64,000 nt of DNA, from NCBI RefSeq assembly GCF_001548095.1, contig NZ_AP014815.1, positions 248,001 through 312,000 on the forward strand, written 5' to 3'. Under the pieces are notes generated by a model. The model was not told the DNA's origin. It was given only the letters and a program-made list of their open reading frames with translations, and made no database searches. Shown here piece after piece: positions 4,407-13,725 of this stretch. The translations under genes were made by a program, and so were the position numbers. This DNA comes from Geminocystis sp. NIES-3708 (GTDB lineage: Bacteria > Cyanobacteriota > Cyanobacteriia > Cyanobacteriales > Cyanobacteriaceae). Positions within the stretch are counted from its first letter, which is position 1. Every line of letters starts with the position of its first letter.

Positions 4407-5300
4407 ATGAATCGTGGTCATTTATTAACTGAACAAATTAACATTGCTAGTACGAATTTAGATCAACTTTCAGCATCGGAAATTGTCGATTTATTTAATC
4501 AAGAAGATCAAAAAACTATTGAGGCGATCGCCAATGCTAAAGAAGAATTAGCACAAACCATCGAAATAACAGCAAAAGCTTTGAATAAAGGTGGTCGTTT
4601 ATTTTACATTGGAGCTGGTACTAGCGGACGTTTAGGGGTATTAGACGCTGCCGAATGTCCCCCCACCTTCTGCACAGATCCAGACATGGTACAGGGCATT
4701 TTAGCTGGAGGAGTGTCTGCGTTATTAAAAAGTTCAGAAGCCTTAGAAGATCGCCCTGAAGATGGTGCTAAGGCGATGATTGATCATGGTGTCAACTCCC
4801 TAGATATAGTTATTGGTATTACTGCAGGTGGTACAACTCCCTATGTTCATGGTGCATTAAAAGAAGCTAAAAAATTAGGTGCTGTGGCGATCGCCATGAG
4901 TTGTGTACCAAAAAATCAAGTACCAATTGATGCAGATATTGATATTCGCTTATTGACAGGTGCAGAAATTTTGGCAGGTTCAACTCGCTTGAAAGCAGGA
5001 ACAGTTACAAAAATGGCTCTTAATATCATTTCCACAGGAATAATGGTAAAATTAGGAAAAGTTTACGGTAATCGTATGATTGATGTCTCTGTAACGAATA
5101 GTAAATTAGAAGATCGAGCATTGCGTATTATCAGTGATTTAACTAATTTAGATCGAGAAAGTGCGACTAAACTGTTAATAGCTAGTGGTAATAAAGTAAA
5201 ATTAGCTTTATTAATGCACTGGAGTAATAAAACTTTATCTGAAGCAGAATTGTTGTTGGCAGAAAATAATGGAAATTTACGACAAGCGTTAAATAATTAA
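4407..5300 (+). CDS. murQ: N-acetylmuramic acid 6-phosphate etherase
   Basis: 297 residues, normal length. The SIS sugar-isomerase domain carries the family signature YIGAGTSGRLGVLDAAECPP near residues 68-87 and a C-terminal helical region. It cleaves the lactyl ether of MurNAc-6-phosphate to give GlcNAc-6-phosphate and D-lactate, a cell-wall recycling step. It lies after a peptidoglycan peptidase gene. nanE at 31908-32585 feeds the same GlcNAc-6-phosphate pool. Confidence 0.95.
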   Translation: MNRGHLLTEQINIASTNLDQLSASEIVDLFNQEDQKTIEAIANAKEELAQTIEITAKALNKGGRLFYIGAGTSGRLGVLDAAECPPTFCTDPDMVQGILAGGVSALLKSSEALEDRPEDGAKAMIDHGVNSLDIVIGITAGGTTPYVHGALKEAKKLGAVAIAMSCVPKNQVPIDADIDIRLLTGAEILAGSTRLKAGTVTKMALNIISTGIMVKLGKVYGNRMIDVSVTNSKLEDRALRIISDLTNLDRESATKLLIASGNKVKLALLMHWSNKTLSEAELLLAENNGNLRQALNN

Positions 5301-5314
5301 TAATTAATAATTAA
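5294..5314 (+). repeat. Heptamer TAATTAA in three copies
   Basis: TAATTAA is tandemly repeated three times across the murQ stop codon. The array supplies the stop codon itself. Confidence 0.8.
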
Positions 5315-5405
5315 AATAACCTACATAGACAATATTAATTTTTTATTATCCATTGCATTTACTACCATCAAAAATATAAAAGACTAAGTTTTTGAAGGTG
5401 AAATT

Positions 5406-7718
5406 ATGACTAAAATTGATTGGAAAATTTATCCTTCTGATGATATTCCAGAATGGTTTCATAAAGAAGTAAATCATCTTACAAGCAGAAATAAATCTAA
5501 TTATTTAACTAAGTTATTATGGGGTAGAGGAATTCGTGATTCTCAAAAATTGCAATGGTTTTTAAGTACGAATAATTATTCCTCTTCTTCCCCTTTTGAA
5601 TTTGGTAGAGAAATAAAACAGGCTTTAAAACGTTTAGAAAACGCATGGAATCGAGGAGAAAAAGTTGCTATTTGGGGAAATTATAATATTGATGGTATAA
5701 CTGCCACTTGTGTTTTATGGGAAGGTTTAAAACCCTTTTTCCCCTCAGAAAATCACCTAATTTACTATATTCCTCCTGGTTTTCATAACTCTCAGGGCTT
5801 AACTTATCAATATATTGATTTTCTACAAAAACAGGGGATTAATCTCATTATTACTGCCGATATGGGTAGTGATAATATCAAAGAAATTAAATATGCTCAA
5901 AATTTAGGAATTGATATAATTGTTATTGATCATCATACGTTACCAAATCATCGCCCAGAGGTAATTTCTTTTCTTAATCCCTTAAATTTTGCTGAAAATC
6001 ATCCTTTCTTTGCTCTTTCAGGAGTTGGTATCGCTTATAAATTATTAGAAGCTTTATATCAACAATTTCCTTCTATTTCTTCATTATCCCTTACCTGTTT
6101 ACTTGATTTAGTTGCCATTGGTTTATTAGCTGATACCACTCCTTTAAAAGGTGATTGTCGTTATTTAGCACGAGAAGGTATTAAGATTCTACAACAAACT
6201 CAACGATCAGGTCTTGATTTTCTCGTTCAATTGTGTCAAGATAATGGCGATCGCCCTATGAATATTTCTCAAGGTATTGCCCAAAGAATTAATGCTATTA
6301 ATTATATTCATTATGATCATAATTTGGCTTTTCAATTATTAACAACTACGGATCAAGAATTAGGACGAAAGTTAGCAAATTTAGTTGAGAAAGCTTATTT
6401 TAATGTGAAAAATTTACAAACAAAAATTCTTTTTGAAATACGTAAAAAAATTAATAATTTAGATATATCTAATGGTGGTCTTATTATTCTTGATAATAAT
6501 CAATGGGAAGTAAATTTTTTGCCTTTAATAACTCATCTCATTAGTAAAGAATATAATCGCCCAACTATTTTATTATTTAGTGATGAAAATCAAAATATAG
6601 CTAAAGGTTATGGTTGTTCTATTAATGAGATAAACTTGGTTGAATTATTAAGTAATAAACAAGAATTATTCTATAGTATTATTGAATACCATGATACTAT
6701 AGAATTATCTCTACCTATAGAAAATATCTCTTTAGTTAGAGATAGTATTAATCAACAATTAAGAAGTAAAATTAATCTTGATTTTTTCAAACCATTAATT
6801 AATATTGATTTAGTTGTCACTGTTTCTGAATTAGGTAAAAATTTACGTCATGAATTAAGATTAATTGAGCCTTGTAGTGTTGATAATCCTAATCCTAAAT
6901 TATTAATACAAAATTGTTGTTTTAAAAATCTTACCAATAAAAATCAAAGCTATAAAAATGAAAGAAAAGAAGGAGAATATATTCAAACATCTTTTACTAT
7001 TTACGATCAAAGTTCTCCAGATAAGGGTTTTAATGGTATTTGGTTAGGACATTATAGCAACGAAATTAATCCTAATTCTATATATGATATAGTGGTGGAA
7101 TTAGATTATAATTTTTTGAATAAACAATACTATATTAGGATAATTGATCTTAAACTTAGTCAAAAAAATATTAATTATCTCACTACTATAAAATCTGCTC
7201 CTTTAATTATTGATAATAGACAAGAAATATCAAAATTAGATATTAATGATAATTCTAAAATTATATTAGATAAATGTCCTGTTGAATGGCAAGAAATAAC
7301 CTCTCATTATCAAAATGCTGTCACGAATCAGAAAAATTTGGTCTTAGGTTATCACTATAACAATCAAAAAAATAGTCAAGAATTATGGTATATATTTATT
7401 AATATTATCAAGGCTTTAATTAAAGAAAATGAAGCAAAAAATATTAATATATTATTAGAGATACTTGATATTAGTGAGTTATCACTAAAAAATATTTTAG
7501 ATTCTTTAGAAAAAATTGGCATAGTTTATGAAAATCAAGAAAATAAGCTCCAATTTCAACAAATTTTTACCACTTTTTCCTCTGAAGTTTATCAACAAGT
7601 TAAACAAAATTTTGAAGACATCATTAAGCAAGAAAATTTACAAAAAAATTATTTTTATCAAATACCTATTTCCACAATCAAAGACGAAGTTATTTCTAAT
7701 AACCTAAAACACATTTAA
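5406..7718 (+). CDS. recJ: Single-stranded-DNA-specific exonuclease RecJ
   Basis: 770 residues. The DHH phosphoesterase domain carries WGNYNIDGITATC near residue 90 (family form DYDxDGxT), TADMGS, and the DHH triad IDHHTLPNH at about 174. These are followed by a DHHA1 region and a long cyanobacterial C-terminal extension rich in Asn and Ile. RecJ degrades 5' ends of single-stranded DNA in recombination and repair. The first Asp of the DYD motif is replaced by Asn (NYN), which is worth checking. The start ATG at 5406 is preceded by GAAGGTGAA, a good ribosome site. Confidence 0.9.
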   Translation: MTKIDWKIYPSDDIPEWFHKEVNHLTSRNKSNYLTKLLWGRGIRDSQKLQWFLSTNNYSSSSPFEFGREIKQALKRLENAWNRGEKVAIWGNYNIDGITATCVLWEGLKPFFPSENHLIYYIPPGFHNSQGLTYQYIDFLQKQGINLIITADMGSDNIKEIKYAQNLGIDIIVIDHHTLPNHRPEVISFLNPLNFAENHPFFALSGVGIAYKLLEALYQQFPSISSLSLTCLLDLVAIGLLADTTPLKGDCRYLAREGIKILQQTQRSGLDFLVQLCQDNGDRPMNISQGIAQRINAINYIHYDHNLAFQLLTTTDQELGRKLANLVEKAYFNVKNLQTKILFEIRKKINNLDISNGGLIILDNNQWEVNFLPLITHLISKEYNRPTILLFSDENQNIAKGYGCSINEINLVELLSNKQELFYSIIEYHDTIELSLPIENISLVRDSINQQLRSKINLDFFKPLINIDLVVTVSELGKNLRHELRLIEPCSVDNPNPKLLIQNCCFKNLTNKNQSYKNERKEGEYIQTSFTIYDQSSPDKGFNGIWLGHYSNEINPNSIYDIVVELDYNFLNKQYYIRIIDLKLSQKNINYLTTIKSAPLIIDNRQEISKLDINDNSKIILDKCPVEWQEITSHYQNAVTNQKNLVLGYHYNNQKNSQELWYIFINIIKALIKENEAKNINILLEILDISELSLKNILDSLEKIGIVYENQENKLQFQQIFTTFSSEVYQQVKQNFEDIIKQENLQKNYFYQIPISTIKDEVISNNLKHI

Positions 7719-7872
7719 CTTGTATTTTTTAAAATTAGTAAAAAATCAAAGAAACCCTCAGCTCATTGACTATTTTTACCACTCAACTTAGATCCCTCTG
7801 AGCTTAATACATGAATATGATCCTAAAAGTTTAAAAGATGTAATAATATAGCGAAACCATTTTAGTAAAATT

Positions 7873-8781
7873 ATGTTGAAAAAACTTGTTATCACATCTC
7901 TATCTCTAATGGGTTTATTGCTATCCACGGGCGTAAAACCGACTATGGCTGGTACGGTATTAGAAAATATTGCTAAAACAGGAACTTTTACCGTTGCAAC
8001 TCCTTTTAACACAGTGCCTTATTCTTATTACAATCCTGAAAACGAATTGACTGGTTTTTCCATCGATGTCGTCAAATTAATTCATCAACAATTAGAAAAA
8101 GAATTAGGGCGTAAAATAGAGCTAAATTTTGTCGAAGTTAATTCTATTCAAGAAGCTATTCCGAAGATGATAAGCGGACAGGTAGATATTACTTGTAATA
8201 CAGCTTTTACATGGGAAAGAGATAAATATGTGGACTATACTCTCAGATATACCATTTCTGGCATTCGATTATTAATTCCTAAAGGTAAAGCACCTACTGA
8301 TACTTCTTTTACTAACAAAAAAATTGGTATTCCTCCCCAAACCTTTGTGAGAGATGCCATTAAATTAAATTATCCCAGTGCGATATTAGTGGATGTCAAA
8401 AGTTTAGAAGAAGGAACTAATAGTTTAAATGAAGGTAAAATAGACGCTTTGGCAGGAGATAGCATTCTTTTAGATGGTTTTCGTCAACAAGTTAATCCTG
8501 ATGGATTTGAGCAGTTTCCTCCCTTTGCCGAACCTTCTTTAGCTCAATATGGAGTTGGTTGTATTGTTCCTGAAAACAATTCTGCTTTCTTAAATATTGC
8601 CAATTATAGTATTGCCAGAATGATGGAAGGTTATATTGTTAAAGATCCAGAAATGACTCAATTATTTCAAAAATGGATGGGAGAAAATGGTGTTGTTAAT
8701 ATAGTTAGTGATGAAGCAGTTGAATTATTCTTTAAAACTACGATCATCAATCACGAACAAATTCCTTTTCCTAAAAAATAA
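7873..8781 (+). CDS. grrP: Extracellular substrate-binding orphan protein of GRRM clusters (GrrP-like)
   Basis: 302 residues with a signal peptide (LVITSLSLMGLLLSTG, cleavage after the Ala of TMA near 26). The rest is a family 3 periplasmic solute-binding fold: ATPFNTVPYSYYNPENELTGFSIDVVKLIH and GQVDITCNTAFTWERDKYVDYT are diagnostic. No ABC permease or ATPase is adjacent. Genes for such orphan binding proteins are known next to GRRM radical SAM genes, and here it starts an apparent four-gene operon (gap 27 bases). It may bind a peptide or small ligand linked to the RiPP; the ligand is unknown. Confidence 0.85.
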   Translation: MLKKLVITSLSLMGLLLSTGVKPTMAGTVLENIAKTGTFTVATPFNTVPYSYYNPENELTGFSIDVVKLIHQQLEKELGRKIELNFVEVNSIQEAIPKMISGQVDITCNTAFTWERDKYVDYTLRYTISGIRLLIPKGKAPTDTSFTNKKIGIPPQTFVRDAIKLNYPSAILVDVKSLEEGTNSLNEGKIDALAGDSILLDGFRQQVNPDGFEQFPPFAEPSLAQYGVGCIVPENNSAFLNIANYSIARMMEGYIVKDPEMTQLFQKWMGENGVVNIVSDEAVELFFKTTIINHEQIPFPKK

Positions 8782-8808
8782 AATCAAATTTATAATTGAT
8801 GAAATATC

Positions 8809-9162
8809 ATGAAGATTTCAAATCTGACGTGGTTGGGTTTTTTCTTAACCCTATCGAGTTTGAGTATTTCCCCTAAAACTCTTGCCGTTGAAAGTAATAA
8901 TATCAGTAGTGCCAACAATATTGAAGCTCGTTTAAATCGCATTTCTGAAGCCCTAAAAACCAGAGAAAACAACTTACCAGAAAATCCTTTAGATTATCCT
9001 GATGAAGAAATTTTAGTAGGTGGATTTATCAATGGTGGTGGTGGTTTTCGTAATATAGCTGGTGGTGGCGGTTTTATTAATAATCGAGGCGGCGGTGGTT
9101 TCGTCAATGGGCGAGGCGGCTGGGGAGATGGAGGCGGTGGCTTTATAAATCGCCGTTACTAA
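8809..9162 (+). CDS. grrA: GRRM-system Gly-rich RiPP precursor 1
   Basis: 117 residues. N-terminal Sec-type signal (KISNLTWLGFFLTLSSLSI), a conserved leader block IEARLNRISEALKTRE at about 44-59, then from residue 78 a core of Gly runs with aromatic triads FIN, FRN, FIN, FVN, WGD, FIN and a final RRY. Every Phe and Trp in the core has Asn or Asp at +2. In this family the maturase links the aromatic ring to the third residue's side chain (three-residue cyclophane); that chemistry is known for relatives and inferred here. It shares its leader with the next gene and lies upstream of the maturase gene. Confidence 0.9.
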   Translation: MKISNLTWLGFFLTLSSLSISPKTLAVESNNISSANNIEARLNRISEALKTRENNLPENPLDYPDEEILVGGFINGGGGFRNIAGGGGFINNRGGGGFVNGRGGWGDGGGGFINRRY

Positions 9163-9222
9163 TAATTATGTTCAAAAAATCAGAAAAAATATTTATCCCT
9201 TTATTGTTTGATTAATTTATTT

Positions 9223-9624
9223 ATGAAAATCACAAATTTAACATGGCTAGGCTTTTTAATGACTTTATCTAGTCTTGCCATTGTACCTAAAACTCAGGCT
9301 TTAAATACCGATAACCTTAATAATTTTGATAATATTACCGAAAATATAGAAACCCGTTTAAACCGTATTTCTGAAGCCCTAAAAGCTAGAGAAAAAGACT
9401 TACCTCAAGATACTCAAATAGAAAATTATTCTGAGGAGGATATATTATTAGGACAAGCATTTTTAAATGGTAATAGAGCAGGTTGGGCTAATGGTGGCAG
9501 AAATTGGCGAAATGGCGGTAGCTTCTTGAATAACAACAGAGGTGGTGGTTTCATTAATCAACCCAGAAATTTCCTCAATAATCGTGGTTGGGGAGATGGT
9601 GGCGGTTTTTGGAATCGACGCTAA
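9223..9624 (+). CDS. grrA: GRRM-system Gly-rich RiPP precursor 2
   Basis: 133 residues from the ATG at 9223, chosen because MKITNLTWLGF aligns with the first precursor; an ATG five codons upstream adds a non-matching extension. Leader block IETRLNRISEALKAREK is nearly identical to that of copy 1. The core has eight aromatic-x-Asn/Asp triads (FLN, WAN, WRN, FLN, FIN, FLN, WGD, FWN) and ends FWNRR. It is richer in Trp and Asn and poorer in Gly than copy 1, so the two are diverged paralogues. A 47-base spacer leads to the maturase gene. Confidence 0.9.
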   Translation: MKITNLTWLGFLMTLSSLAIVPKTQALNTDNLNNFDNITENIETRLNRISEALKAREKDLPQDTQIENYSEEDILLGQAFLNGNRAGWANGGRNWRNGGSFLNNNRGGGFINQPRNFLNNRGWGDGGGFWNRR

Positions 9625-9627
9625 AAT

Positions 9628-9655
9628 TTATTACTCATTACCTATTACTCATTTA
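9628..9655 (+). repeat. Imperfect 14-bp tandem repeat before grrM
   Basis: TTATTACTCATTAC then CTATTACTCATTTA, both close to the unit before murQ at 4377. They fill the grrA2-grrM spacer. Confidence 0.7.
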
Positions 9656-9671
9656 TCATTACTTTTAAATA

Positions 9672-10853
9672 ATGGCGATCACAAAAAACAAACTTTCAAT
9701 TAACTTACAAGAATCCTCTCAATTTGGACCTATTTCTTTAGTGGTTATTCAACCAAATTCATTCTGTAATTTAAACTGTGATTATTGTTATTTACCTGAT
9801 CGCCATTTACAAAATCGTTTATCTTTAGACTTAATTGATCCTATTTTTAAAAGTATTTTTACCAGTCCTTTTTTTAAAGATAATTTTACAGTTTGTTGGC
9901 ACGCAGGTGAACCTTTAACCATGCCTATTTCTTTTTATAAATCTGCGTTTCAACTAATCAATGAAGCGGAACAAAAATATAATAAAACTGACTTTGGTTT
10001 TAATCATTCTTACCAAACTAATGGTACATTAATAAATCAAGGATGGTGTGATTTTTGGCAAGAAAATCCTGTGCATATTGGCGTAAGTATTGATGGTCCA
10101 GCATTTTTACATGATGCCCATAGAAAAAATCGCAAAGGTGGTAATTCCCATGATTTAACCATGCGAGGAATTCGTTATTTACAAAAAAATAATATCCCTT
10201 ATAATACTATTTCTGTGATCACCGAAGAATCATTAAATTATCCTGATGAAATGTTTAATTTTTTCCTTGAAAATGAGATTTATGACATCGCTTTCAATAT
10301 GGAAGAAACTGAGGGAGTCAATGAATTAACTTCTCTTCATGGCAAAGAAATTGAGTCTCGTTATATCAAATTTATTGAGCGTTTTTGGCAATTAGTAACA
10401 GAAAGTAAATTACCTTTTATAGTCAGAGAATTTGAGGTATTAATTAGCTTAATTTATAGCGGCAATAGACTAAAAAATACCGACATGAATAAACCTTTTG
10501 TTATTGTTAATTATGATTATTTAGGAAATTTCTCTACATTTGATCCTGAATTATTATCAGTAAAAACAGAAAAATATGGAGACTTTATTTTCGGCAATGT
10601 TTTAACAGATACTCTTGAATATATTTGTGAAACCAATAAATTTAAAGCTATTTATAATGATATTAATGAAGGAGTAAAATTATGTTCAAACAACTGTAGT
10701 TATTTCGGTATTTGTGGTGGTGGTGCAGGTAGTAATAAGTATTGGGAAAATGGTAATTTTGCTTCCATGGAAACTCAAGCCTGTCGTTATCGCATTAAGA
10801 TTTTAACAGATGTTTTAGTTAATGCTATAGAAAAATCTCTTTTGATTTCTTAA
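9672..10853 (+). CDS. grrM: Radical SAM/SPASM peptide maturase GrrM
   Basis: 393 residues. The radical SAM cluster motif CNLNCDYC places Cys at 32, 36 and 39, followed by CWHAGEP. The C-terminal SPASM region has LCSNNCSYFGICGGGAGSNK and a last Cys in QACRY, as in peptide-modifying maturases binding auxiliary 4Fe-4S clusters. Position after two Gly-rich precursors and an orphan binding protein identifies the GRRM family. It should act in the cytoplasm on the precursors before export. Residues beyond the cluster motifs look intact and the length is normal, so the system is probably active. Confidence 0.92.
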   Translation: MAITKNKLSINLQESSQFGPISLVVIQPNSFCNLNCDYCYLPDRHLQNRLSLDLIDPIFKSIFTSPFFKDNFTVCWHAGEPLTMPISFYKSAFQLINEAEQKYNKTDFGFNHSYQTNGTLINQGWCDFWQENPVHIGVSIDGPAFLHDAHRKNRKGGNSHDLTMRGIRYLQKNNIPYNTISVITEESLNYPDEMFNFFLENEIYDIAFNMEETEGVNELTSLHGKEIESRYIKFIERFWQLVTESKLPFIVREFEVLISLIYSGNRLKNTDMNKPFVIVNYDYLGNFSTFDPELLSVKTEKYGDFIFGNVLTDTLEYICETNKFKAIYNDINEGVKLCSNNCSYFGICGGGAGSNKYWENGNFASMETQACRYRIKILTDVLVNAIEKSLLIS

Positions 10854-10898
10854 AGCAATTAAATGCAACGATGTGTAGCATGGTGTGTTCTTCTCTAC

Positions 10899-11160
10899 TT
10901 ATAAATCTGATAAAATCTGTTTATACTGACCATGATCTCTAATCCAAAACCATAAAATACTATCGGATTCATCAACACCTAATGCCCTAAACTCTAATAG
11001 ACCATAAAGTTCTAATTTTTTTCAACTTTAATGAGGGATGACGAGAATTTTCTTTCAATAATTGATATTTTTGATCTGCTATTTTTTGAGTTTTAAGTGG
11101 TAATTTATAATAAAATTGACAAAAGCTATAACTGGTGTAATAACTTATATTTTCTGGCAT
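10899..11160 (-). pseudogene. RelE/ParE-type toxin pseudogene (frameshifted)
   Basis: Starting at ATG 11160, the frame encodes FYYKLPLKTQKIADQKYQLL and SLKLKKIRTLWSIRV and then meets TAG. A second frame continues FRALGVDESDSILWFWIRDH and ends at 10899. Together they match the ParE/RelE-like toxin pattern LW-S-I-R ... YRAL ... ILWFWIG-H. A few codons at the junction (usually G-x-x-YRAL) are lost. The start lies five bases after the decayed antitoxin stop. Confidence 0.75.
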
Positions 11161-11165
11161 TTTCC

Positions 11166-11342
11166 TTATCTAAATTCCTGTTTAACTTGTGCAATCAACT
11201 TATTTAATCTTCCCTTTTCTAAATCTTCCTCTATTTGTTTATCCCATTAATTCTCTGTATATTCATCTATCCAATTAAATAACTCTTTTTGTTCGGTGAC
11301 AGATAAATTTTTGACTTGTTTTTTGATTTCTGTGATAGTCAT
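11166..11342 (-). pseudogene. Small antitoxin pseudogene (internal stop)
   Basis: From ATG 11342 the frame gives MTITEIKKQVKNLSVTEQKE and FNWIDEYTEN, an in-frame TAA, then WDKQIEEDLEKGRLNKLIAQ to a second stop at 11166. The WD-x-QIE-D pattern is typical of short antitoxins paired with ParE-like toxins in cyanobacteria. One substitution accounts for the stop; removing it restores about 58 codons. It precedes the broken toxin in the same direction. Confidence 0.7.
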
Positions 11343-11381
11343 AGTTTAATCATTTTGATATTCAAGAAGAATCTAATTAAA

Positions 11382-11786
11382 TTATTTGAGATGACGCATT
11401 GCCCAAGAGATGAACTCTTCAAGAGAATATACACCTATTAATTTGTCATCAATTTGAGATTTAATCCATTGAATTGCACCTTGACGAATCCCACCACCTT
11501 GTAAAACAACAATTGTCGGGCAAGGATAACATTCACGAATATTTTGAACCAAGTAAGGTAGTTTTTCATCTGCACTACCATTTACGTCTTGCCATTTTGA
11601 TTCAATGGCTAATCCATCGGGAAAATTAAGAGTATCTTTAACAAAAAGATCTATTTTTAACATACCGCCATAGATATTGTGACCTATTTTATATTGAGAT
11701 TGAACACTAAAACCCTGCAATTTTAATGTATGCTGTAAAATACTTTCAGCAGTTCTCCCTGATTTATTAGCTCTACTTCCTGACAT
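11382..11786 (-). CDS. PD-(D/E)XK nuclease superfamily protein
   Basis: 134 residues, intact. The order is a conserved N-terminal Glu in GRTAESILQHTLKLQGF, then the core D-x(n)-ExK: MLKIDLFVKDTL followed by LAIESKWQ (Asp near 46, Glu-Ser-Lys near 62-64), and a helix QNIRECYPCPTIVVLQGGG. Such single-domain proteins are found among restriction and defence genes; the exact substrate is unknown. It shares its strand with the decayed toxin-antitoxin pair and the winged-helix gene around it. A possible 43-codon remnant precedes it. Confidence 0.72.
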   Translation of the reverse strand: MSGSRANKSGRTAESILQHTLKLQGFSVQSQYKIGHNIYGGMLKIDLFVKDTLNFPDGLAIESKWQDVNGSADEKLPYLVQNIRECYPCPTIVVLQGGGIRQGAIQWIKSQIDDKLIGVYSLEEFISWAMRHLK

Positions 11787-11950
11787 GATAAATACAAAAA
11801 TAGATAAAGTTAAGATAAAGATAAAAATAATTGCATCCCCGACTCTTCAGAACATCTAACAGGTATTTTTTCTATATTAGCCACCCACAAAACCCATTTC
11901 ATTAAACATTTTGCTCTTCGTTCTATTGTTTTCAGACTATGATTACCTGG

Positions 11951-12643
11951 TTAAATCATTTCAATCTTTTCTTGAATTAATTCAAGAGTTAAAGCATTTT
12001 TTCCATAGTAAATTTCATCGAAAATTATTGTTACAGGTTTAAAATCGAGCATCAGTTTTGAAAGAAAAGAATATCTATCCCAATGATCATTAAATTTTAT
12101 TAATTGTTCTCCAAAATCTGTTAAATAATAAATGCGAGTTTTTCCTCGCAGATTATATTTTAGTAAATTAAGCTCGGTACAAGTACGAGTAAAATAAGAA
12201 CCGTGTCGTTTTAATGTTTCCTGTTTACCCTTATGCCCTAATTCCCTTCCAATATCAAATGAATTAACAAAACCTTGATGTACAATTTCAACTGTTCTAA
12301 TAATTTTTTCAGGTCTATCTGTTTGAGGAATATAAGGATAATGTTCTTCATCTTCATTCCATTCATGTTTCAGACTATTCATCATTCTCATAATATTTTT
12401 TCGGGGATCTAAATCAAAGCCATAAACACGAATTGTGTTGTGTTCCTTCAATACGTCATAAAGTAAATTTATTTCTCCGCAAGTAAAAACATAGCAAATT
12501 CGGGGAATTTCAGGAAGTCTCCACGCATCAGAACCTTCAATATCTCCATGCTTTTTCAAATGCTCAAATATTGTTTTAATTACTTCTAGTTTATCAGTCG
12601 AAATATTATCAAAAAATTGATTTGCCAGTTCTATTTCAAACAT
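11951..12643 (-). CDS. Unknown protein: RelE-like N-terminus and winged-helix-like C-terminus
   Basis: 230 residues. Residues 1-85 have the strand-two helices-sheet order of RelE/ParE toxins (FEIELANQFFDNIS, a helix IKTIFEHLKKHGD, then INLLYDVLKEHNTIRVYGFD). Residues about 115-185 (VEIVHQGFVNSFDIGRELG, RHGSYFTRTCTELNLL, TRIYYLTDFGEQLIK) look like a winged-helix domain seen beside nucleases and restriction systems. The fold calls are by eye. The gene starts 18 bases after the Phd-like gene and both run the same way, so the two probably form one operon. It could be a toxin-regulator fusion or part of a restriction module. Confidence 0.55.
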   Translation of the reverse strand: MFEIELANQFFDNISTDKLEVIKTIFEHLKKHGDIEGSDAWRLPEIPRICYVFTCGEINLLYDVLKEHNTIRVYGFDLDPRKNIMRMMNSLKHEWNEDEEHYPYIPQTDRPEKIIRTVEIVHQGFVNSFDIGRELGHKGKQETLKRHGSYFTRTCTELNLLKYNLRGKTRIYYLTDFGEQLIKFNDHWDRYSFLSKLMLDFKPVTIIFDEIYYGKNALTLELIQEKIEMI

Positions 12644-12661
12644 AAAAAAACCTCGATAATA

Positions 12662-13054
12662 CTATTTAGATTTAGCTAATACAAAAAACTGTTCATCAGA
12701 TTTTAGGTAATCAAATTCCATTAAAGGAATTGTCAAATAGCTAGTTAAACGACTGCTAAGAAATGCAATAATTTTTCTTGTATGAAAGGTTAAATAGATA
12801 CAATCAATATTTTGCCCTACTAACTCTCCGGCTTCAGTTAATTGTTCTCTAAATTTGGTTAAAGGCATTTCTATATAATTCTCAATGGGAATACCATTTT
12901 CAGGCTCTAAATCTTTGAGTGGTAATAGAAAGCCCACTACTTCACCATAGGAAGTAATAACGATACGTTGATGTCCTAACTGTACCTGTCTTTTGATTTT
13001 CGTTAATTTTATTCTTAATTCAGATATAGGGACAACCTTGAAGTTTTTACTCAC
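12662..13054 (-). CDS. Phd/YefM-like antitoxin-type protein, two half-units
   Basis: About 130 residues from GTG at 13054, which has AAGGAG 8-12 bases upstream; the longer ATG frame (13114) adds 20 unlikely residues. VPISELRIKLTKIKRQVQLG followed by RIVITSYGEVVGFLLPLKDL is the Phd/YefM fold pattern. A second, weaker copy follows (MPLTKFREQLTEAGELVGQN, CIYLTFHTRKIIAFLSS). Such proteins bind operator DNA and neutralise a toxin encoded just downstream, which here would be the 230-residue protein. The duplicated fold is unusual. Family assignment is by pattern only. Confidence 0.6.
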   Translation of the reverse strand: MSKNFKVVPISELRIKLTKIKRQVQLGHQRIVITSYGEVVGFLLPLKDLEPENGIPIENYIEMPLTKFREQLTEAGELVGQNIDCIYLTFHTRKIIAFLSSRLTSYLTIPLMEFDYLKSDEQFFVLAKSK

Positions 13055-13196
13055 AATGTATATTCTCCTTTTTCTTTCATTTAAAATATTAACATTTTTA
13101 ATAAAGTTTGTCAAACATTTTAAACTTTGTGTTTACAAATTATATAATTAAAGGGATTGATAGTTTTTGTTAGTGTGAGAAATCCTCACCATTGAT

Positions 13197-13461
13197 TTAG
13201 AAATTACCAGCTAAGACTTCTTTGTCTATTTTCTCTATTAAGTAAATTGTTTTCAAATTATTTTCAGCTATCAAATAACCTTGTTTTGGAGATTTTTGAC
13301 ACCATTTAATTGCTTGTTGAATATTATGATTTACTCCTAAACCTAAATGATAAATATTACTTAAAATACATTGTAATTCTTGATTTCCTTCTTCTGCTAA
13401 TGGCTTTAATATTGATATTTTTCTCTTCAAAAGCAAGTAAGCCTTTTTCTAAGTTTGACAT
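13197..13461 (-). pseudogene. Sel1-repeat protein, frameshifted
   Basis: ATG 13461 gives MSNLEKGLLAFEEKNINIKA in one frame. The continuing protein (ILKPLAEEGNQELQCILSNI, HLGLGVNHNIQQAIKWCQKS) lies in another frame down to 13197. The second part is a Sel1-like repeat (A-x-G-x-x-x-x-Q ... Y-x-x-G-x-G-V ... A-x-x-W-x-x-K-x-x-x-Q-G). Joining the frames would give a typical small Sel1 protein; the shift lies near 13410. An 85-residue unknown gene lies six bases upstream. Confidence 0.7.
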
Positions 13462-13467
13462 TTTTAA

Positions 13468-13725
13468 TTATATAAACTTATTAGCTACATTTTTACCATC
13501 AACTCTTTCATATTCATCTTCTAATAACCACGAATTAACATCATCATAATTATTACTAGAAAATATTAATTTATACTGTTGTGCAGGATTATAAACTTCA
13601 TATTTTCCCTCATTATCTCCTATCAACATTAAAATTCTAGGTGGGAAAATAATTGTATCAATCCATAATTCCACAAATTGCCAATTATTATTTAATATTA
13701 CGGGGTTTTGTTCTTGAGATAACAT
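13468..13725 (-). CDS. Hypothetical protein
   Basis: 85 residues, family not recognised. Trp and Phe-rich (NWQFVELWIDTIIFPPRILM), acidic towards the end (SWLLEDEYERVDG). No signal peptide or membrane segment. It sits between a YgiT-type zinc-finger gene and the Sel1 relic on the same strand with short gaps, so it probably belongs to the same transcription unit. Confidence 0.55.
   Translation of the reverse strand: MLSQEQNPVILNNNWQFVELWIDTIIFPPRILMLIGDNEGKYEVYNPAQQYKLIFSSNNYDDVNSWLLEDEYERVDGKNVANKFI

Follow-up and report, generated by a model that had tools for sequence, protein, structure and literature searches.

A complete GRRM cluster, predicted to make triceptides, in Geminocystis sp. 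NIES-3708 with a conserved aromatic-x-Asn/Asp rule in its precursors

A GRRM gene cluster, coding for ribosomally synthesized and post-translationally modified peptide (RiPP) precursors and a radical SAM maturase, was analyzed in Geminocystis sp. NIES-3708 (contig NZ_AP014815.1, 248,001 to 312,000). This whole stretch of 64,000 nucleotides is called the window, and all positions refer to it. The four genes grrP, grrA1, grrA2 and grrM lie on the + strand with gaps of 27, 60 and 47 nt, in agreement with a preliminary description of the DNA (Table 1). The mechanical open reading frame (ORF) of grrA2 opens at a TTG at 9208, and the ATG at 9223 was taken as its start. The preliminary description had assigned the cluster to GRRM and proposed searches with family models, which were run. 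GrrM scored 593 bits against the NCBIfam model TIGR04261 (cut-off 310), GrrA1 and GrrA2 scored 74.8 and 62.3 bits against TIGR04260 (cut-off 31), and GrrP scored 250 bits against TIGR04262 (cut-off 190) and was also matched by Pfam SBP_bac_3. The locus therefore holds a TIGR04261 maturase, TIGR04260 precursors beside it and a TIGR04262 GrrP, which confirms the assignment. The host genome (4.04 Mb) has a single GrrM, and GrrA1 and GrrA2 are its only GrrA.

Table 1 Features of the grr locus, in positions of the window
Feature	Position	Strand	Description	Basis
grrP	7873-8781	+	302 aa, exported orphan solute-binding protein	TIGR04262, Pfam SBP_bac_3, structure model
GrrP probable signal peptide	7873-7950	+	residues 1-26, predicted cut between PTMA and GTV	read from sequence
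grrA1	8809-9162	+	precursor, 117 aa	TIGR04260
GrrA1 probable signal peptide	8809-8886	+	residues 1-26, predicted cut between KTLA and VES	site placed by eye
GrrA1 leader	8887-9018	+	EARLNRISEAL motif	leader profile
GrrA1 core	9019-9159	+	6 aromatic-x-Asn/Asp triads	
grrA2	9223-9624	+	precursor, 133 aa, ATG start	TIGR04260
GrrA2 probable signal peptide	9223-9300	+	residues 1-26, predicted cut between KTQA and LNT	loose rule
GrrA2 leader	9301-9456	+	ETRLNRISEAL motif	leader profile, motif count
GrrA2 core	9457-9621	+	8 triads, 9 Phe/Trp	
grrM	9672-10853	+	393 aa, radical SAM/SPASM cyclophane maturase (predicted)	TIGR04261, structure model
GrrM CxxxCxxC	9765-9788	+	C32, C36, C39; 4Fe-4S/SAM site	invariant in alignments
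GrrM SPASM-region cysteines	10683-10784	+	C338, C342, C348, C371	invariant in alignments

The triceptide kind is not new. NCBIfam already names the precursor model 'GrrA/OscA1 family cyclophane-containing rSAM-modified RiPP' and the maturase model 'cyclophane-forming radical SAM/SPASM peptide maturase GrrM/OscB'. The cluster has the gene set, the motif and the maturase family of the GRRM / OscA-OscB triceptides (TIGR04260, TIGR04261, TIGR04262) and differs from them only in the number and order of its triads, inside the variation seen. Judged from its sequence, the locus is a GRRM triceptide cluster, a well-preserved copy of an already named cyanobacterial family. The primary paper on the OscA-OscB triceptides is reportedly Nguyen et al. 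2020, and OscB may come from the Oscillatoriales cyanobacterium CG2_30_40_61 (L110), whose locus has two precursors. The nearest GrrM proteins were those of Cyanobacteria bacterium CG_2015-22_32_23, an unclassified metagenome-assembled genome (MAG; 91% identity), and Geminocystis sp. GBBB08 (89%), ranked among 80 loci kept of 427 relatives, a set that may omit records very close to the window's genome. The role of GRRM products had been called not known in the preliminary description, and our literature search, limited to texts outside the field's subscription papers, found no functional study of them; the cluster is a clean and complete example of a family with known chemistry.

The core of GrrA1 consists of the triads FIN, FRN, FIN, FVN, WGD and FIN, with Asn or Asp at +2 of all six Phe/Trp. 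In GrrA2 the triads are FLN, WAN, WRN, FLN, FIN, FLN, WGD and FWN, covering 8 of 9 Phe/Trp. The preliminary description had stated that every Phe and Trp, 14 in all, obeys this rule. Its 12 Asn and 2 Asp were confirmed, but the count is 14 of 15, the Trp of the terminal FWNRR in GrrA2 being excepted. When the cores were shuffled 200,000 times each, the observed triad count was reached 0 times for GrrA1 and 5 times for GrrA2.

The rule was then counted in homologous precursors. Among 386 genomes of the phylum, 54 had GrrM over cut-off, at 55 places. About 5 kb per side, contig permitting, was taken for these places and for two remnants, and an additional 80 loci from named genomes, overlapping with the 55-place set, were included. 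A leader profile, made from 24 precursors over their 62 N-terminal residues, detected 132 precursors in 100 of the 135 loci with a GrrM ORF, at an E-value limit of 2.2e-5 chosen post hoc at a gap in the list (next match 0.0012). Because the seeds, except L072, were picked near GrrM by a Gly-content filter, this set leans Gly-rich. It comprised 127 distinct precursors (125 without two broken ones, L031 and L045, which were dropped before counting and whose inclusion hardly changes the counts) and 78 representatives at 70% identity (77 without one broken). The leader motif E.R[LIMV]..[ILMVA] was present in 110 of the 125 precursors, which carry 4 to 12 triads each (median 8). In the 77 representatives, counted downstream of the leader match only, Asn or Asp followed at +2 in 632 of the 671 Phe/Trp that have a residue there (94.2%), against a background of 16.3%. 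Elsewhere between offsets -6 and +6 the share was 3-23%. Random +2 residues in homologues, which the preliminary description had named as evidence against its rule, were thus not seen.

In these homologues the rule is specific for Phe and Trp. With chain ends included, 384 of 418 Phe and 248 of 300 Trp form triads, while Asn or Asp stands at +2 of 3 of 90 Tyr (3/105 counting chain ends) and 0 of 31 His (0/32). Asp occupied 63 of the 248 Trp triads vs 13 of the 384 Phe triads (Fisher p 2e-16), and 8 of those 13 sit in one divergent precursor, L162. This preference fits the Trp-Asn/Asp and Phe-Asn products reported for OscB in the accessible part of PMC11002830. The family-wide counts show that the natural substrates rely on Phe and Trp and make hardly any use of Tyr or His, and that Asp is paired mostly with Trp.

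The CxxxCxxC motif and the four SPASM-region cysteines of GrrM were invariant in alignments of 20 and of 40 GrrM, and, like the conserved aromatic-x-target motif of the precursors, they are as expected of a triceptide maturase. The structure model (pLDDT 91.5) was closest in Foldseek to the anaerobic sulfatase maturase anSME (4k36, E 9e-24) and to ChlB (9gm3, 3.5e-22), the latter solved with its leader; both share the fold of GrrM at ~20% identity and act on other substrates. GrrM stayed well below the cut-offs of the XyeB (67.6 bits vs 450) and FxsB (90.9 vs 370) models of the XyeA/XyeB and FxsA/FxsB triceptide systems; to these models, we presume, XncB and MscB respectively belong. These two SPASM enzymes make three-residue cyclophanes, like the predicted chemistry of GrrM (PMC11002830, accessible part). 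The same source reports that OscB joins Trp C7 to the beta carbon of Asn/Asp and Phe C4 to the beta carbon of Asn, between residues i and i+2, which is the triceptide chemistry that the preliminary description had named for GrrM. The Aro-Xaa-Asn motif has been named for such cyclophane peptides (PMC9062424, in the portion available), and the available portion of PMC10304443 lists cyclophanes for a 2.6 kb cluster of Lyngbya sp. PCC 8106. The carbon-carbon bond type is thus known for relatives of GrrM and predicted for GrrM itself.

Could the triads be a by-product of a short, copied Gly-rich repeat (GGFxNGG), with the maturase acting on few or none of them? The cores show direct repeats at the DNA level, and Gly makes up 31% of the tails in the 77 representatives, both as such an origin would predict. 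By eye, however, the repeats in the window differ in their codons, and Tyr and His of the same tails stand outside the rule. Moreover, the rule is kept in Gly-poor precursors: counting the second half of each ORF, L166 (which has no Gly there at all) gave 8/8, L159 9/9, L050 6/6, L162 8/9 and L150 9/11. L159, L162 and L150 are within the leader-found set, while L166 (E 0.0012) and L050 (0.032) are beyond its limit; L050 is only partly independent, since the candidate ORF list was limited to ORFs with at least 2 triads, although L050 has a weak leader match as well. Three of these ORFs belong to divergent GrrM loci and differ in triad type (L166:839-1177, W-S-N/W-N-D; L159:5282-5620, W-x-N; L162:7190-7519, F-x-D). 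Two further precursors, L054 (2/4) and L055 (3/4), were chosen by a triad-counting filter and are not independent evidence, and a candidate in L052 gave 0/1. A repeat origin of the rule is therefore very improbable. Related SPASM enzymes perform other chemistry, and the type of bond is not fixed by sequence alone, so GrrM might install a different modification on the triads, such as an ether link or an epimerization. Against this, GrrM matches TIGR04261 at 593 bits and its next-best family is AmcB, at 270 bits vs a cut-off of 425, and OscB, a member of the same curated family, yields carbon-carbon cyclophanes on the same motifs (PMC11002830, accessible part). We consider a different modification to have only a very slight chance of being right.

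Several observations weigh against cyclophane formation on the triads, or against parts of the path proposed for the product. The Trp of FWNRR in GrrA2 has Arg at +2, and it sits inside a Phe triad. In the homologues, 39 of the 671 Phe/Trp break the rule and 47 more stand at chain ends; in many cases the exception is Trp at the C-terminus or the inner ring residue of FFN/FWN, and a minority simply do not fit. At 35 of the 135 GrrM loci there was no leader match within the limit; in the Microcystis genomes checked among these, grrA is situated elsewhere in the genome. The signal-peptide rule described below is loose, with a strict A-x-A in only 84 of 125 precursors and a misplaced site in GrrA1. 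In genome G095 a grrA with 9 triads persists, with grrP present (L182/L213), in a genome that gave no GrrM match; recent loss of GrrM and an assembly gap are not distinguishable in this case. Decay of triads after GrrM loss, considered as a natural knock-out, was rejected because G095 keeps its 9 triads.

Taken together, it is highly probable that GrrM forms cyclophanes on the triads of GrrA1 and GrrA2, as predicted from the sequences. GrrM, with its radical SAM and SPASM clusters, would recognize the leader E-x-R-L-x-R-I of both precursors and couple the ring of core Phe/Trp to the beta carbon of Asn/Asp at +2, with loss of 2 H per ring. The prediction is for up to 6 rings on GrrA1 and up to 8 on GrrA2. 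The stapled polypeptides would then be exported via their signal peptides and there meet GrrP, which is likewise exported, is related to Glu/Asp-binding proteins and has no adjacent permease; the role of GrrP is the weakest part of the proposed path.

The N-termini of the precursors resemble export signals, as far as a home-made loose rule can suggest: a hydrophobic N-terminus followed by a small-x-small site was found in 125 of 125 precursors. On GrrA1 the script found the hydrophobic stretch and set the cleavage too early. NCBIfam and Pfam scans of nine ORFs in 4407-13114 (drawn from 19 ORFs of at least 50 aa listed for 5000-13500) showed no protease or exporter; no search for either was made at homologous loci. 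Cleavage occurs in well-studied radical-SAM peptides, darobactin among them, and the product could accordingly be a short, cleaved and diffusible peptide, for instance an antibiotic, with GrrP serving in immunity or uptake. At issue here is what becomes of the product, not the ring chemistry. Given the signal-like N-termini and the lack of a protease or exporter among the scanned ORFs, such a fate seems rather unlikely.

The GrrP model (pLDDT 89.1) gave Glu/Asp-binding proteins as its top Foldseek matches, and Ala26, at the predicted signal cleavage site, is invariant in 41 aligned GrrP. Two partly overlapping profiles were built, A3 from 41 and A2 from 21 GrrP. The best match in the Protein Data Bank (PDB) was the Shigella Asp/Glu-binding protein DEBP (2vha, 2ia4) with A3 and BvgS with A2, DEBP being third. 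DEBP and GrrP have in common their fold, the two cysteines (C108, C230) and an aligned Arg (R116). In A3, R116, D196 and both Cys are invariant; in A2, R116 is kept in 19/21, D196 in 17/21 and both Cys in 21/21. Unlike DEBP, GrrP varies at the positions aligned to Arg24 and Arg75, which we take to be ligand-binding residues of DEBP. Arg occurs there in 19 and 22 of the 41 GrrP of A3 and, at either position, in 3 of the 21 of A2, and the window's GrrP has Pro and Ala. Because R116 is kept while these positions vary, the pocket, though variable, may still accommodate an amino-acid-like head group. No permease or ATPase for an ABC-type uptake system was found among the nine scanned ORFs, the rest of the genome not being searched. 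A disulfide signature specific to GrrP was also considered and rejected, because the Cys pair occurs in unlinked paralogues (by motif) and in DEBP.

Linkage was examined in the 54 genomes with GrrM and in 23 further ones, using start coordinates and counting broken copies. GrrA over cut-off was present in 50 of the former and 2 of the latter. Among the 67 grrA places, 64 had a GrrP-family gene and 46 had grrM within 3 kb. Seventeen lacked an over-cut-off grrM within 10 kb, which in two cases (G095, G286) does not amount to true unlinking. At the other 15, where grrM is more than 10 kb off or on another contig, grrP was kept within 3 kb in 13, and some of the 15 are possibly contig breaks. Separation within one contig was seen in G312 (558 kb), in G014 (2.3 Mb, measured along the contig) and in G272 (second pair, 518 kb). 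On the other hand, 22 of 76 places with a GrrP-family gene had no grrA within 3 kb (one, G093, beside a sub-threshold grrA), and such grrA-free genes are present also in genomes without GrrM; the family is therefore wider than GRRM.

These results suggest that GrrP may be a partner of the product and not of the maturase. Tentatively, and with more doubt than confidence, we propose that GrrP is a dedicated extracytoplasmic partner or receptor of stapled GrrA, recruited from a Glu/Asp-binding protein and reading the beta-aryl Asn/Asp or the terminus, so that the functional unit would be grrP-grrA, served by a shared GrrM able to act from elsewhere in the genome. The tight grrP-grrA linkage directs functional studies to the question of whether modified GrrA is bound by GrrP.

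Adjacent grrP-grrA with grrM distant or on another contig was observed in G312, G014, G080, G097, G235, G253 and G357, especially in genus g24, judged to be Microcystis. A GrrP paralogue in G000 (C1:2322104-2322859; L205:5063-5962) scored 185 bits, just below the cut-off of 190, and is flanked by two genes with nearly identical starts that by eye resemble membrane antiporters. The cluster of G286 is decayed: its grrA is flanked by incomplete copies of grrM and grrP, the grrM remnant adjoining it. In G266, also decayed, the start of grrP and the end of grrM apparently share one 156-codon ORF.

Six plasmid records carry GrrM homologues, each below 60% identity. On plasmid pP18_a of Phaeobacter piscinae, typed as conjugative and outside the cyanobacteria, a Trp-rich precursor-like ORF (L219:3633-3977; WLN, WSN, WNN and others) immediately precedes a GrrM homologue (39.7%). 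By eye it keeps the rule at 7/9 positions, adding to the Gly-poor precursors that do so. Beside the homologue on a Streptomyces plasmid, which lies next to thiopeptide-type genes, no precursor was seen by eye among the ORFs. A MAG labelled Candidatus Eremiobacterota contains a GrrM (L111:391-1512) with 62-63% identity to that of the window, reflecting contamination or transfer. At the window's locus, 15 promoter-like sites were counted vs 17.2 in shuffles, and 0 terminators vs 1.5. Downstream of grrM, on the - strand at 11382-13114, small genes code for PD-(D/E)XK_11 nuclease-like, weakly DUF7226-like and Phd/YefM-type antitoxin-like proteins.

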